Source of the DNA: a virus
DNA: 21,958 bases
Strand: one strand, 5' to 3'
Virus record (IMG/VR): IMGVR_UViG_3300009507_000149
Coordinates: 1 to 21,958 of that record
The position numbers and the translations under genes are program-made. How positions within the stretch are numbered: the first letter of the stretch is position 1; the number at the start of each line of letters is the position of its first letter. The notes under the pieces are model-generated. The model was not told the origin of the DNA. It ran no database searches and saw nothing but the letters and a program-made list of their open reading frames with translations. This document shows positions 9,415 through 18,017 of the stretch, one piece after another.

Positions 9415-11148
9415 TTATCCGATTCCTGCTGTATCTACTATTCTTCTATCTAATTCTTGTTGATTCGTTACATCACTTCCTACTACGAAAGCTCTAATTG
9501 GTTGATTCACTTGCCCTCCCACTGCTTGAGCTAACTGGTTAGTTCCTGAAGCACCAACTACATTAAAGTCTGGTGCTTGAACTGTAGCACCACCTCCTGC
9601 ACTTCCTGAACTAATTGGAGTATTAGTGTTTAATGATTTTAATGCACTAACTGTGGATGCAACTATAGCTAATTGAGTAGCTATTGCACCTGCAACCTTT
9701 ATCGGAGCAGGTGTAAATGTTGGGTCTTTTACTAGCCAAGCCTCCCAAACTCCAACACTTGCAGCAGCAGCAGATGCTATTATAGACGCTCTAGCTAAGT
9801 CTTTATTTCCGTCCGCAATATCAGCAGCAGATTTAAGGAAATCAGATAAGCCACCGAGCATTGACTGAAGGTGTTTTACCTTAGCTTTTCTCTCTGCTAA
9901 ATCATACTTATCGTTTACAGCTTGAACAGCATCTCTATATGCTATAGTTTCAAATATAGCTTCTTCCCCAAATTTCTCTGTATCTTCTTTTAACTTTTTT
10001 AGCTCAGCTTCTCTAGTCTTAGGGCTTAACTTAAATATCTTAGATAGCAAAGACTGTTTCCCTTTGTTTAATGCGTAGGTACCTGAAACTTCATCTACAT
10101 CATCTATAAATTCAATAGTCTCTTTTAATACTAGCTCTTTAGTTTCTTTCCATTCCCCTTCATCAAACTTAATCATTAAGTTAGGTTCAAATAAAGGCTC
10201 TTCATTTAACGCCTCAAATTGAGGTCTAAGCTCCATAACTAAATCAATCTGGTCTCTTAGTTCTTTCTTTAATCTTTCTAATTGTTTTAATCTTTTGAGA
10301 CCTGCACGTCTTTCACTAGGATCTTGTTCTTGAATAGTTTTTAACTCTTGCTCTATCTTTATAAGCTCCTTCTGCTGCCTCTGATAATTAAAGTAATCAT
10401 CAATCAATAAACCTAATGACACTCTATTTATTTTAGAACTTTCATCTAATTTATCATAGCCATTTTTAAAATCATCAAACCTATCTTTAAGTCTCTCTAC
10501 GTTTTTAATAATATCATCATCTGGTGCGAAAAAATCAAAAGCAGAGCCATTAGCACCTGCTAGATTTTGTGCTACTCTAATCTGCTCTTCCATTGCTTTA
10601 GTAGCTTCTTCTATAGATTTCTTAGCTTTTTCTGCACCTTCATCAATTCCTAAAAAGAAGTTGTATATTTGGTCTCCATAAGCAATTAACAATTGGATTC
10701 CAATAAGAATACCTCCAGTTCCCATAAGAGATCTACCTAAATTTTTTAACGAAGTACCTACGCTATCACTTGTTTGAATTAAATTACCAAATAATGACGC
10801 TAATTGACCAACGTTATTTGCTACACCATTAAATCCAAAACGTGCATCAGATGCAGCTCTACCTGCTTCAGTAAGTATAGCGTTATTAAGACCTACTTGA
10901 GTCTTTGCTCTTTTAGTGCTATTCCCTAGATTTTCAGCACTCGCAGCAGCTAGATTATTAGCGTCTCTATGTTGCTTTATTTTAACATTAAGCTTCGCTA
11001 ATTCTTTAGCTTCTTGACTTTGTTCGTAAGCTAGTTTTTTTTCTGCTGCTGCTAACTTATTGACTCCTTTTTCAACATCTTCAACATCTTTCTTGGCTTT
11101 TTTACTAGATACGTCAATCTTTATAAATATATTCTTATTTGCTGCCAT
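9415..11148 (-). CDS. Tail tape measure protein (577 aa)
   Basis: The N-terminus is a long charged coiled coil (KKAKKDVEDVEKGVNKLAAA and on), followed by a hydrophobic segment at about 142-165 (TGGILIGIQLLIAYGDQ). A middle helical region is rich in Lys, Glu and Leu. An Ala-rich hydrophobic stretch lies at about 455-505, with a Gly/Ser linker and a C-terminal IRAFVVGSDVTNQQELDRR motif. That order is typical of short tape measure proteins in Bacteroidetes siphophages, which set tail length and may help DNA entry. At 577 residues it predicts a short tail. Its start overlaps the 49-aa gene by 14 bases. Confidence 0.8.
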   Translation of the reverse strand: MAANKNIFIKIDVSSKKAKKDVEDVEKGVNKLAAAEKKLAYEQSQEAKELAKLNVKIKQHRDANNLAAASAENLGNSTKRAKTQVGLNNAILTEAGRAASDARFGFNGVANNVGQLASLFGNLIQTSDSVGTSLKNLGRSLMGTGGILIGIQLLIAYGDQIYNFFLGIDEGAEKAKKSIEEATKAMEEQIRVAQNLAGANGSAFDFFAPDDDIIKNVERLKDRFDDFKNGYDKLDESSKINRVSLGLLIDDYFNYQRQQKELIKIEQELKTIQEQDPSERRAGLKRLKQLERLKKELRDQIDLVMELRPQFEALNEEPLFEPNLMIKFDEGEWKETKELVLKETIEFIDDVDEVSGTYALNKGKQSLLSKIFKLSPKTREAELKKLKEDTEKFGEEAIFETIAYRDAVQAVNDKYDLAERKAKVKHLQSMLGGLSDFLKSAADIADGNKDLARASIIASAAAASVGVWEAWLVKDPTFTPAPIKVAGAIATQLAIVASTVSALKSLNTNTPISSGSAGGGATVQAPDFNVVGASGTNQLAQAVGGQVNQPIRAFVVGSDVTNQQELDRRIVDTAGIG

Positions 11149-14787: not shown

Positions 14788-16008
14788 TTAAATTCCAAAG
14801 TATCTTGCGTTTGAGAAGTTGAATTGCACTCCCTCTTGAGGATCGTTGAAGAACTCTCCTGATACATACTTAGGACTATTAAATATATTAGAACTAATTG
14901 TAGGAAGCGCTTCATTTAAATCACTTAAATATATATTGTTTCTATTGAACAATTGGCCGTTACTATAATCAGTTCCAAATGTGTGGTTCAATGTCATCTG
15001 AACACCAGTTACAGTTTCTGAATTGTTATGGGTTAATATCTTATTTACACCTCCTGACTCTGACGTTGGATGAGAAGCTATAAGTAGTTTATATTGAGCT
15101 TGATGGTCTGCTTGTGTTCTTACTTCAAGTTTATTTAGGCTAGATGTTAAGGCTGACTCGTTAACATAAACAGTTGTCATCTGACCATTGTTTCCAGATG
15201 CTGAGTAAGTCCAATTCGCCCACACAGGAAGATTGCTAGCGTTTATTTTATTTCCAATGTATGGTAATGTGGTAGGGTCTACTATCCAATCTGGAGTAAC
15301 ATCAGAGCAAATTATTCTAATACCTCCATTAATCTTAGCTGAAGGTAAGGTTATATTTACGTCATTCAGCTTTATTGTTACAGCACTTGTGCCTGAAGCC
15401 TGTTGTGGTAAGCCTGAAACCCATTTAGTAAGGTTAGCAGTATTATACAAAGTGATAACTGTAACATAACCCGAAGTAGACGGAGGCGGTGCAACAACCT
15501 CACTAGCACAAGAAGTAATCTCAACTACAGTCCCGCTAATAGGCATAGGCGCCAATATCTCTAATATAAGGTTCTCTCCATTGTTATTGCCAGAGTTAGT
15601 AGTATGGGTTAAACTAGCTGATATGGGAGTTGTACCTGCTGTACCACTTAACACTTCTCCAGTATTCTCAAGCCACTCATCTGCATATTGACTAAGCCCT
15701 TTAGTAGTATAAGATCCTGTTGCAGTTCCTTCATTATATACCCTATATTTTATAGGAATAGTAATATTACTAAACGTAACCGTATAGTCTCCGTATTGTC
15801 TATTAGCAGTACTAATTCTAATTTTCTTAACCCCTACAGCAGCAGCATAGTTAATAGAATTTCCACAGGCTAAATCAGTAGTACTTACAACTGGCTCTGT
15901 TGGCGGCTCTGGATCTGGTGGGATAGGTACATCTGGTTCAAACTCATCCTCTACTGTTATGTAGTAAGGACTTCTTACGTTTATTTTTCTTATATCATCT
16001 ATTGCCAT
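14788..16008 (-). CDS. Tail protein with proline-rich linker and beta-rich domains (406 aa)
   Basis: The first 22 residues (MAIDDIRKINVRSPYYITVE) form a short conserved head seen at the start of some Bacteroidetes phage tail proteins. A Pro-rich linker (residues 27-40) follows. The rest has two beta-rich regions: about 45-170, an Ig/CBM-like sandwich with a Cys pair, and about 180-330. The C-terminus is a NNIYLSDLNEALPTISSNIF segment near 353. The linker suggests flexible domains displayed from the virion. It could be a major or minor tail component or an adhesin; position between the gp10-like and the 388-aa gene supports the tail. Confidence 0.55.
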   Translation of the reverse strand: MAIDDIRKINVRSPYYITVEDEFEPDVPIPPDPEPPTEPVVSTTDLACGNSINYAAAVGVKKIRISTANRQYGDYTVTFSNITIPIKYRVYNEGTATGSYTTKGLSQYADEWLENTGEVLSGTAGTTPISASLTHTTNSGNNNGENLILEILAPMPISGTVVEITSCASEVVAPPPSTSGYVTVITLYNTANLTKWVSGLPQQASGTSAVTIKLNDVNITLPSAKINGGIRIICSDVTPDWIVDPTTLPYIGNKINASNLPVWANWTYSASGNNGQMTTVYVNESALTSSLNKLEVRTQADHQAQYKLLIASHPTSESGGVNKILTHNNSETVTGVQMTLNHTFGTDYSNGQLFNRNNIYLSDLNEALPTISSNIFNSPKYVSGEFFNDPQEGVQFNFSNARYFGI

Positions 16009-16583
16009 TACTCAAGTATAAAGTTGTTACCTTTTTTAGCATATCCTGCTCCAATTAATATTTCTTCTATGTTTAATTCAATATCTTTAACTATTGAATC
16101 GTCTATAGCATTTAGCTTATCCATTGCATTCTCTATAGCTGAATCTATAAAACCTGTTGGCTTTATGCCTATACTTTGAATACTCCTAGCTATATTGTTT
16201 GCAGCACCTAGTGTTGCCTTATCTCCCATCGAACTACTCGCTGTCCTGCCAGAATTTAAGGTTACTGGCTTAGCTCCCATCCAAGACACTATACCTCTAA
16301 CTAAATCAGGTAATGTACCGTCAGGAATTCCACCATCATTTACTAGCTGACCATAAGCGTTCCCCATAACATCAAAAGAGAATCCATCTTCTTCCTTATT
16401 AAACTTCTTACTCAAACTCTGTGCTAAATTCCCAGATGAATTTATAGGAGCGTTTATTGACTTGCCAGAGCGATAACTCCTTTGTCTCTCTCTTGTAATT
16501 TCATGTTTAAGCAATTTGATTAGCTTATCAGAAAAACTAGCCATAAAGGCTTTTGTATTTGAGAATTTATTTATCATTGACAA
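16008..16583 (-). CDS. HK97 gp10-like tail completion/neck protein (191 aa)
   Basis: A basic N-terminal helix region is followed by SSGNLAQSLSKKF and VMGNAYGQLVNDGG, close to the SG-x-L-x-x-S-L ... G-x-Y-x-x-x-V-x-x-G pattern of HK97 gp10-like neck and tail completion proteins. It overlaps the 164-aa gene by 10 bases and shares a 1-base stop/start with the next gene. Such proteins join the head connector to the tail or cap the tail. The call is from the motif plus location; the exact role within the neck is uncertain. Confidence 0.65.
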   Translation of the reverse strand: MSMINKFSNTKAFMASFSDKLIKLLKHEITRERQRSYRSGKSINAPINSSGNLAQSLSKKFNKEEDGFSFDVMGNAYGQLVNDGGIPDGTLPDLVRGIVSWMGAKPVTLNSGRTASSSMGDKATLGAANNIARSIQSIGIKPTGFIDSAIENAMDKLNAIDDSIVKDIELNIEEILIGAGYAKKGNNFILE

Positions 16584-17068
16584 TTAGTACTTCCATCTGA
16601 GTTAATAAGACCCATATCACTATTTGGCATATTTATCGCTAAGTCCATAGACCAACCAGTTAACAAGTTCTCAAACCTATCTTCAAATAAACTGGCACTT
16701 GCAGGACTATCTATCTCTACATTTGCATCATGCAGCCCACCTCTTCTAAGGGAGCTTTGCAATCCGTTAACCACTGTAAGCATCGTATTCAAAATATCTT
16801 GTTTGTTGTCTAGTCCTAGATGAGGTTTTGCCAATGATAATTTATCTTCTTTAGATTCATCAACAATATCCATCGCCATAACAGTTATATTAAAAGTAAC
16901 TATATACTCATCGAATGTTACTGACCCTACGTTTATATGGGCAAGAGGAAATATAGTTTGTTTTGTTAAATCAACATCCATAACGTCACCAATAGTAACT
17001 GTATTGATAGACTGGTTGCCATTTAAGTAGTTGTAGATGTAGTCGATTAAATCGTAGTATGTTTTCAT
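16574..17068 (-). CDS. Tail terminator-like protein (164 aa)
   Basis: The small mixed alpha/beta protein starts with a helix (MKTYYDLIDYIYNYLNG), then strands with VDLTKQTIFPLAHINVGSV and a FNITVMAMDIVDES strand. It ends with a GWSMDLAINMPNSD strand. This fold pattern is that of the siphophage tail terminator, a hexamer ring that caps the tail tube. The start ATG (17068) overlaps the TGA of the -1 frame extension of the tail chaperone (ATGA), which ties it to that gene. The role is inferred from the fold pattern and neighbours. Confidence 0.55.
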   Translation of the reverse strand: MKTYYDLIDYIYNYLNGNQSINTVTIGDVMDVDLTKQTIFPLAHINVGSVTFDEYIVTFNITVMAMDIVDESKEDKLSLAKPHLGLDNKQDILNTMLTVVNGLQSSLRRGGLHDANVEIDSPASASLFEDRFENLLTGWSMDLAINMPNSDMGLINSDGSTNCQ

Positions 17069-17325
17069 TTGTAACTATTTTTTATCATTTGTTTTTCTAT
17101 CTCGTTCTTTTCTTTTTCAAATACTAAATATGTTAAACATTTGTGGAGCGATAACTCGGTAACTTCATCAAATTTAAGTATATTTCCTTTAGCGAGTCCA
17201 TAAATTGATTGATACCAACCCCACTTTTTTCCAAATGTGTCCGTAACTCCAAGTTTTCCTCTTTGATCAGTACTGCCTCTGTATATCTCAGGGTAACTTT
17301 CGACAACTGAATCCCTAAACGATAA
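17065..17325 (-). CDS. -1 frame extension of tail assembly chaperone (86 codons, via programmed frameshift)
   Basis: In the -1 frame relative to the 226-aa gene, 86 codons stay open from the T9 run to a TGA at 17067-17065. That frame has no ATG, GTG or TTG before its last few codons, and a TAG lies only 6 codons upstream of the run, so an independent start is unlikely. The product contains DTFGKKWGWYQSIYGLAKGN and HKCLTYLVFEKEKNEIEK, which resembles the second half of Bacteroidetes phage tail chaperones. Its TGA overlaps the ATG of the next gene as ATGA. A fusion of residues 1-163 plus 86 would be 249 aa. Confidence 0.75.
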   Translation of the reverse strand, partial: LSFRDSVVESYPEIYRGSTDQRGKLGVTDTFGKKWGWYQSIYGLAKGNILKFDEVTELSLHKCLTYLVFEKEKNEIEKQMIKNSYK

Positions 17326-17813
17326 AAAAAAACCATAGCACTTATCGCTGCACTAAGCGGCATATCCTTCATTATCTCCTCGACCTCCTCATTCGGATTA
17401 TACGGGGCTATAGTATACGCATCTCCTTTCTTGAAGTTAACAGGTCTATATAGAACTGCCATCGCCTTGTGCATAGTTTGCCAATCCAAAATAGTATTCT
17501 CAAGGTCGATGTACTCTCCAAGAGATATACTGTCTAATTTCGGTATAAAACCAAATTCAACATCTCTTAATGTAAAATGCTTTACTAAATCTCTATCTTC
17601 ACTAAAAGCCTTTTCAAGCACTCCTAAGACCTTTTCTACCTCTAAGACGGGTATAGAGTCCACATCATCCATAGAAACCCCACAGAACAGCTCTATGAGC
17701 TTCTTATTGACGTATTGCACATCATCATTATCCACTACTTCCAAATACTCTTGATATTGCCACAGTTGAATGTCATCTAAAGAAGTGGGTACGGAAAGGT
17801 TTATTATTGCCAT
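17133..17813 (-). CDS. Tail assembly chaperone, zero-frame product (226 aa)
   Basis: The first gene of the structural operon, starting at ATG 17813. Residues 5-25 (NLSVPTSLDDIQLWQYQEY) and LYRPVNF near 121-127 resemble a family of Bacteroidetes phage tail assembly proteins. Codons 161-163 (GTT TTT TTT) lie in the T9 run that can shift ribosomes to the -1 frame. Past it, the zero frame continues for 63 codons (to LMKLPSYRSTNV) and ends at TAA 17133. It would bind the tape measure during tail assembly, as lambda gpG does; that role is inferred. Confidence 0.8.
   Translation of the reverse strand: MAIINLSVPTSLDDIQLWQYQEYLEVVDNDDVQYVNKKLIELFCGVSMDDVDSIPVLEVEKVLGVLEKAFSEDRDLVKHFTLRDVEFGFIPKLDSISLGEYIDLENTILDWQTMHKAMAVLYRPVNFKKGDAYTIAPYNPNEEVEEIMKDMPLSAAISAMVFFYRLGIQLSKVTLRYTEAVLIKEENLELRTHLEKSGVGINQFMDSLKEIYLNLMKLPSYRSTNV
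17322..17333 (-). promoter_or_regulatory. Slippery T9 site for -1 frameshifting
   Basis: Nine consecutive Ts lie in phase as T TTT TTT after the second base of codon 161, which matches the X XXY YYZ heptamer rule with all Ts. The A and P sites could re-pair fully after a 1-base slip. A weak hairpin (AGGG at 17316-17313 with CCCT at 17293-17290) lies downstream. RNA polymerase slippage on T9 is an alternative route to the same product. Confidence 0.7.
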
Positions 17814-18017
17814 ATTATAGTAATTATTTTATTATCGTTTGTACCTCTTGTACGTTTTGGCACATATACTATTAATAGTACTATATACAAATAGTTCTAT
17901 ATAGTACTACTATAGGGTACTATTCATGAATAGTTCTATATAGTTCTACTAATAGTACTATATGAATAGTACTATATATAATAAATAACTATTTATATAT
18001 ATTGTGCCACATAGGCA
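17814..18017. promoter_or_regulatory. Upstream control region of the structural operon
   Basis: A 204-base gene-free stretch between the 87-aa gene and the tail chaperone. It is extremely AT-rich and contains the repeat cluster at 17874-17978. No good match to the TTG/TAnnTTTG promoter is seen, so late transcription may need a phage activator. Confidence 0.5.
17874..17978. repeat. Five AATAGTNCTATAT repeats
   Basis: The 14-bp units lie at 17874-17887, 17890-17903, 17929-17942, 17951-17964 and 17965-17978. Three read AATAGTACTATAT and two AATAGTTCTATAT; the last base is A in four and G in one. The core AGTACT is palindromic. Extra degenerate copies lie between units. Such clusters are usual for repressor or activator sites. 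Confidence 0.8.

Follow-up and report, generated by a model that had tools for sequence, protein, structure and literature searches.

The two reading frames of the locus

The window, a virus record of 21,958 bases, contains on the minus strand a gene in which a run of nine T's is followed by two long open frames. This locus raises the question whether the run allows one gene to encode two proteins and at which level the reading frame would be changed. A first-pass annotation had proposed a tail chaperone with a -1 frameshift of the lambda type. Its coordinates (the open reading frame, the T9 run, the -1 frame and the TGA/ATG overlap) were all correct, and upon re-reading the sequence we found the open reading frame of 226 aa, T_TTT_TTT in zero phase at codons 161-163 and 86 open codons in the -1 frame. 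The features of the locus and its surroundings are:

17133..17813 (-), zero-frame open reading frame of 226 aa (short product), consisting of the conserved N domain (codons 1-163) and a 63-codon zero-frame tail
17324..17332 (-), T9 run (U9 in the mRNA), putative slippage site; a T-run of at least nine is present at the homologous site in 328 of 328 analysed loci
17325-17331 (-), T_TTT_TTT heptamer, comprising the last base of codon 161 plus codons 162-163
17065..17325 (-), -1-frame extension, C domain of the predicted 249-aa fusion, with the FGKKWGWYQSIY motif region; 86 codons and TGA, family conservation from the first residue
17136..17324 (-), stretch of 189 nt with both frames open, 63 zero-frame codons
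17242..17316 (-), stretch with purifying selection on both frames according to rates and pN/pS, codons 4-28 after the slip
16574..17068 (-), downstream gene for a 164-aa protein of phrog_30964, with an ATG start that overlaps the TGA of the -1 frame (ATGA)
16008..16583 (-), neck-like neighbour, weak matches only (HK97-gp10-like, E 0.11; phrog_29822, E 0.054)
9415..11148 (-), probable tape-measure gene encoding 577 aa (phrog_32985); tape-measure PHROGs are also matched by the family members from Inhavirus and L164

Open from 17352 onwards, the -1 frame ends in a stop codon (17067-17065) that overlaps the downstream ATG at 17068. Joining the 163 codons up to the run with the 86 codons of the extension would give a fusion of 249 aa. 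No -1-frame open reading frame of at least 60 aa with an ATG, GTG or TTG start is listed for this locus among the open reading frames of the window. The AT-rich intergenic region upstream of the gene (17867-17983) contains three imperfect direct repeats of 38 nt and many inverted repeats with TAGTACTATA-like units; these repeats are possibly regulatory.

Conservation of the run and of the two-product layout

Searches with the N part and with the -1 part yielded an initial set of 160 IMG/VR loci. This set was enlarged by further searches, by the Nonlabens phages and by contigs of Bacteroidota genomes (identity down to 21%), so that the homologues come from IMG/VR viruses, the cultured Nonlabens phages P12024L and P12024S, and Bacteroidota prophages. 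The profile analysis comprised 331 loci; the C domain could be scored in 328, and there were 249 distinct sequences.

In these 328 loci the run has a length of nine (279 loci), ten (48 loci) or twelve (one locus) and is never shorter than nine. All 249 distinct homologues contain at least nine T's, as do 257 of 258 distinct sequences when the remote prophage copies are counted; of nine prophage copies that are more distant, eight have T9 itself. A run of eight was not seen in the family, though the heptamer requires only seven. The single exception is the remote relative L343, whose run close to the expected position is just T5; it keeps the -1 relation and an open zero frame of 70 codons. Additional copies from Bacteroidales and Flavobacteriales mostly follow the same rule as the family.

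The C domain is situated in the -1 frame beginning at the run in all 249 distinct homologues. The homologues match the -1 product from the first residue past the run, which bears out the earlier description of this product as conserved. Those of the 160 initial loci in which both parts were matched agree in the T-run, in the frame relation and in where the homology past the run begins. Because the homology starts right after the run and all 328 loci carry at least nine T's, the layout is not a matter of chance. The zero frame stays open for 25-101 codons beyond the run. Stops in the -1 frame of homologues would have spoken against the first-pass annotation; this frame is open for 74-94 codons in almost all members, and in one virus contig (L005) it ends at 33 codons. 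In the family an ATG is absent from the -1 frame before residue 30 in 224 of 245 members, though some ATG, GTG or TTG is present in 111 of 245. In 186 of 245 members the -1 stop codon overlaps the start of the next gene as ATGA, and frameshifted ribosomes could re-initiate there. In 227 of 246 members the third frame runs into a stop codon two to three codons past the run, and consequently a one-base deletion in the mRNA would yield a truncated N domain. This early stop probably just reflects which codons the other two frames use. The comparison confirmed the predicted two-product gene as a conserved layout in Bacteroidota phages, far beyond the window.

Some relatives carry the two domains in frame. 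In the isolate genome of Dysgonomonas sp. 520 a T10 run (L170, 7515-8276) puts the N and C domains into one frame; the second copy in this genome (L168) has T9. Three remote relatives (L353, L354 and L355; weak homology, E 3e-5 to 7e-4) encode both domains in a single open reading frame upstream of a tape-measure gene. In L353 and L355 two or three genes lie between the fused reading frame and the large downstream gene, whose identity as a tape-measure gene was tested and supported. Owing to L170 and these three relatives the fusion is a plausible genuine product.

The Inhavirus genes gp40-gp41 and gp38-gp39 (Nonlabens phages P12024L and P12024S) share the N domain, the T9 run and the C domain in the -1 frame with the window, and in P12024L the phrog_30964 gene follows. 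They differ from the window in that the zero-frame tail has only 25 codons and the gene is located directly after the terminase gene. The annotation of P12024L (L162, NC_018272, 23946-24640) splits the frameshift gene into two hypothetical proteins treated as unrelated, gp40 and gp41, and that of P12024S does likewise; thus, the fusion was missed.

Flavobacterium phage 6H (L172, 10044-10927) encodes a structural neighbour of the N domain (found in BFVD) followed by an unannotated 105-codon open reading frame in another frame. It was considered as a T9 member and rejected, as there is no T9 at the corresponding place. It may be another frame-change gene.

Coding in both frames downstream of the run

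About 190 bases had been suggested to code in both frames. Both frames are indeed open over 189 nt, which is long: in two collections of phage frameshift genes the slip site and the stop codon are on average 26 and 36 nt apart (PMC10885494). We shuffled the codons of the -1 frame synonymously and scored whether the zero frame was open as far as observed, or over 54 codons. It stayed open in about 5% of the shuffles per lineage. In the reverse experiment, shuffling zero-frame codons, the -1 frame remained open in ~0.4%.

Substitution rates were determined from 50 disjoint pairs. Synonymous differences per site in the -1 frame amounted to 0.139 in codons 4-28 and 0.221 in the later overlap; past the stop of the zero frame they reached 0.301, and in the N domain of the same pairs 0.447. 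In codons 4-28 omega was 0.81 for the -1 frame and 0.67 (0.52-0.84) for the zero frame; in the later overlap constraint is seen on the -1 frame (0.36) and is not clear on the zero frame (0.99). The pN/pS ratio of the zero-frame tail is 0.68 (95% 0.55-0.82) in codons 4-28 and 1.48 beyond codon 28.

Purifying selection on both frames is therefore demonstrable for the first ~28 codons past the run, and functional dual coding extends demonstrably over 75-85 nt, not 190. Beyond ~28 codons clear constraint is limited to the -1 frame. The stretch directly after the run is a clear natural case of dual coding under selection.

Identity of the gene product

The N domain matches phrog_32199 (E 4e-19), which like phrog_30964 is without assigned function. 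The gene shares its tail module with a neck-like gene and a gene of a tape-measure family. The Inhavirus homologue of the neck-like neighbour matches phrog_29822 and 'tail completion or Neck1' (E 4e-4), and in L171 a tape-measure-like gene is situated directly upstream of the slip gene. AlphaFold predicted the N domain of the zero-frame product with confidence; a helix (residues 153-185) spans the slip site and the confidence falls after it. The -1 domain alone was predicted to be helical with modest confidence (pLDDT 73, pTM 0.52).

Several observations count against a role as tail-assembly chaperone. Neither by sequence nor by fold was a solved structure in the PDB matched, and for the -1 domain there was no functional match in Pfam, PHROGs or PDB. 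In BFVD one protein annotated as tail assembly chaperone was matched weakly (E 0.038). Unlike the lambda gpG/gpGT type, the gene resembled no known chaperone in profile or solved-structure comparisons, and in the window it lies several genes away from the tape-measure gene. Nevertheless, from synteny, the two-product layout and the in-frame relatives, tail-assembly chaperone is the best assignment and a probable one. Of the chaperone identity put forward earlier, the position in the tail module and the two-product layout stand; similarity to a solved structure does not add to them.

Polymerase or ribosome

Lambda-type tail chaperones are the textbook case of ribosomal frameshifting. As in lambda gpG/gpGT and many siphophages, an N domain would be made with and without a C domain that is reached by a -1 shift, and the gene lies in a tail module. 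The slip site differs from that of lambda in being a U9 run. The design appears to be that of lambda G/GT, combined with a putative slip site of the kind known from transcriptional slippage.

Nine A's or T's are the selection threshold for transcriptional slippage in many genomes, and mxiE (with a U-run) and dnaX make use of it (PMC1088944; PMC3711429). The locus resembles Shigella mxiE and Thermus dnaX in its homopolymeric run of U or A, on which RNA polymerase is known to slip in those genes (nine A's in dnaX). In mxiE the slip joins two open reading frames into a longer product (PMC1088944). Unlike these two, our candidate for slippage is a structural-assembly gene of a phage with conserved dual coding past the run. 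Searches of open-access papers turned up no tail-chaperone gene for which transcriptional slippage had been described.

We searched for RNA structures downstream of the run. The mean folding z-score was 0.00 in 104 diverse members, the region after the run gave 0 consensus pairs and the Rfam search produced no match. A downstream structure, which is common but not obligatory at programmed -1 ribosomal frameshift sites, is thus not seen, and the heptamer of the form X_XXY_YYZ is present in phase. The homopolymer of about nine or more A's or T's that is typical of programmed transcriptional slippage is conserved in 249 of 249 distinct homologues (remote exception L343).

The remaining genes of these viruses avoid long stretches of T. 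Runs of at least eight T's were observed 4 times against about 36 expected (T8, 3 against 23.8; T9, 0 against 7.0). T7 shows a similar deficit in all three phases (0.53, 0.67 and 0.58), as expected for polymerase slippage. Among the runs of at least eight, 0 of ~23 expected contained the heptamer in phase and 4 of ~14 out of phase. As to the register, xTT TTT TTT Txx is found in 204 and xxT TTT TTT TTx in nine of the 249 distinct sequences, besides longer forms; the latter register also occurs in L338-L342, L344 and L348. In the tree the register switches several times, and xxT TTT TTT TTx represents at least one lineage, two by parsimony. This argument for polymerase slippage is suggestive, not conclusive.

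Alternative explanations

Homopolymers are error-prone, and a T8 or T10 could have been misread as T9 or misassembled. This explanation is refuted by the 249 distinct sequences with at least nine T's, which come from cultured phages and from many assemblies made separately, and we attach practically no probability to it. Just as little can be granted to two overlapping genes that are translated separately without a fusion, although P12024L is annotated in this way: a conserved -1 start codon is missing (no ATG before residue 30 in 224 of 245 members), the homology starts at the run, and in-frame fusions occur (L170, L353-L355). A zero-frame tail that is open but passive, with the fusion alone or the -1 domain alone being of importance, would agree with the variable length of this tail (25-101 codons) and with its pN/pS of 1.48 past codon 28. 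We consider this improbable in view of pN/pS and omega over codons 4-28 (0.68 and 0.67), a -1 synonymous rate in these codons of less than half that past the zero-frame stop, and a zero frame that is open in successive lineages at a chance of about 5% each.

The more serious alternative is programmed -1 ribosomal frameshifting on T_TTT_TTT in the style of lambda G/GT, without a stimulatory structure and with the extra T's maintained by protein constraint on codons 161 and 164. T_TTT_TTT fully qualifies as a ribosomal heptamer for a -1 shift, and it has the right phase throughout the family. Other genes have no run of at least eight T's carrying the heptamer in phase, so in-phase runs are avoided more strongly than out-of-phase runs. 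The known phage tail frameshifts are ribosomal, and some can be weak and work without stimulatory signals (PMC5009743). L343 retains the frame relation with only T5, which counts against the polymerase as well, and constraint on the protein, with V/L/I at codon 161 and Y/W/L at codon 164, can partly account for the T's outside the heptamer. Ribosomal frameshifting by itself leaves unexplained why runs of seven or eight are absent and why members without the middle T in the 5' codon carry two T's 3' of it, and the avoidance of T7 in other genes is independent of phase. We regard it as a possible explanation with rather less than an even chance. RNA-polymerase slippage on T9 is modestly favoured over it, because a length of nine is conserved independently of the register, RNA structure is absent and long T-runs are avoided elsewhere. 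Of the lambda-like -1 frameshift suggested earlier, the two-product layout with a -1 product remains; the ribosomal level is not established, and the evidence leans towards transcriptional slippage.

Proposed mechanism and significance

The explanation that combines these observations best, and which we hold to be slightly the likelier one, is a two-product tail-assembly gene whose frame is changed mostly by polymerase slippage at U9. Faithful decoding would yield the short form of 226 aa, the N domain with a helical zero-frame tail. In a fraction of expression events a -1 move at U9 would give the long form of 249 aa, in which the N domain is followed by the conserved C domain of 86 aa. The shift would mostly arise when RNA polymerase slips on T9 and inserts an extra U (U9 to U10), and ribosomes may contribute by -1 slippage on U_UUU_UUU at this site. 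The first 25-30 codons past the run would serve both frames. If the analogy with lambda gpG/gpGT holds, coating of the tape-measure protein would fall to the short form and recruitment of the tail-tube subunit to the long form. The sequences show the open reading frames, a conserved run, conservation in both frames, the lack of a conserved RNA structure and the tail module; we infer the production of both proteins, the level of slippage and the chaperone role.

A run of nine T's should let the cell make two proteins, with the next stretch coding for both. There is about an even chance that this broad family of Bacteroidota phages sets the ratio of two tail-assembly proteins by polymerase slippage on U9 instead of ribosomal frameshifting, while keeping a short dual-coding stretch. 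As T9 is present in cultured phages, slippage is directly testable. If the two-product design is reached here by polymerase slippage, selection would keep the ratio of the products and not the way of making it.
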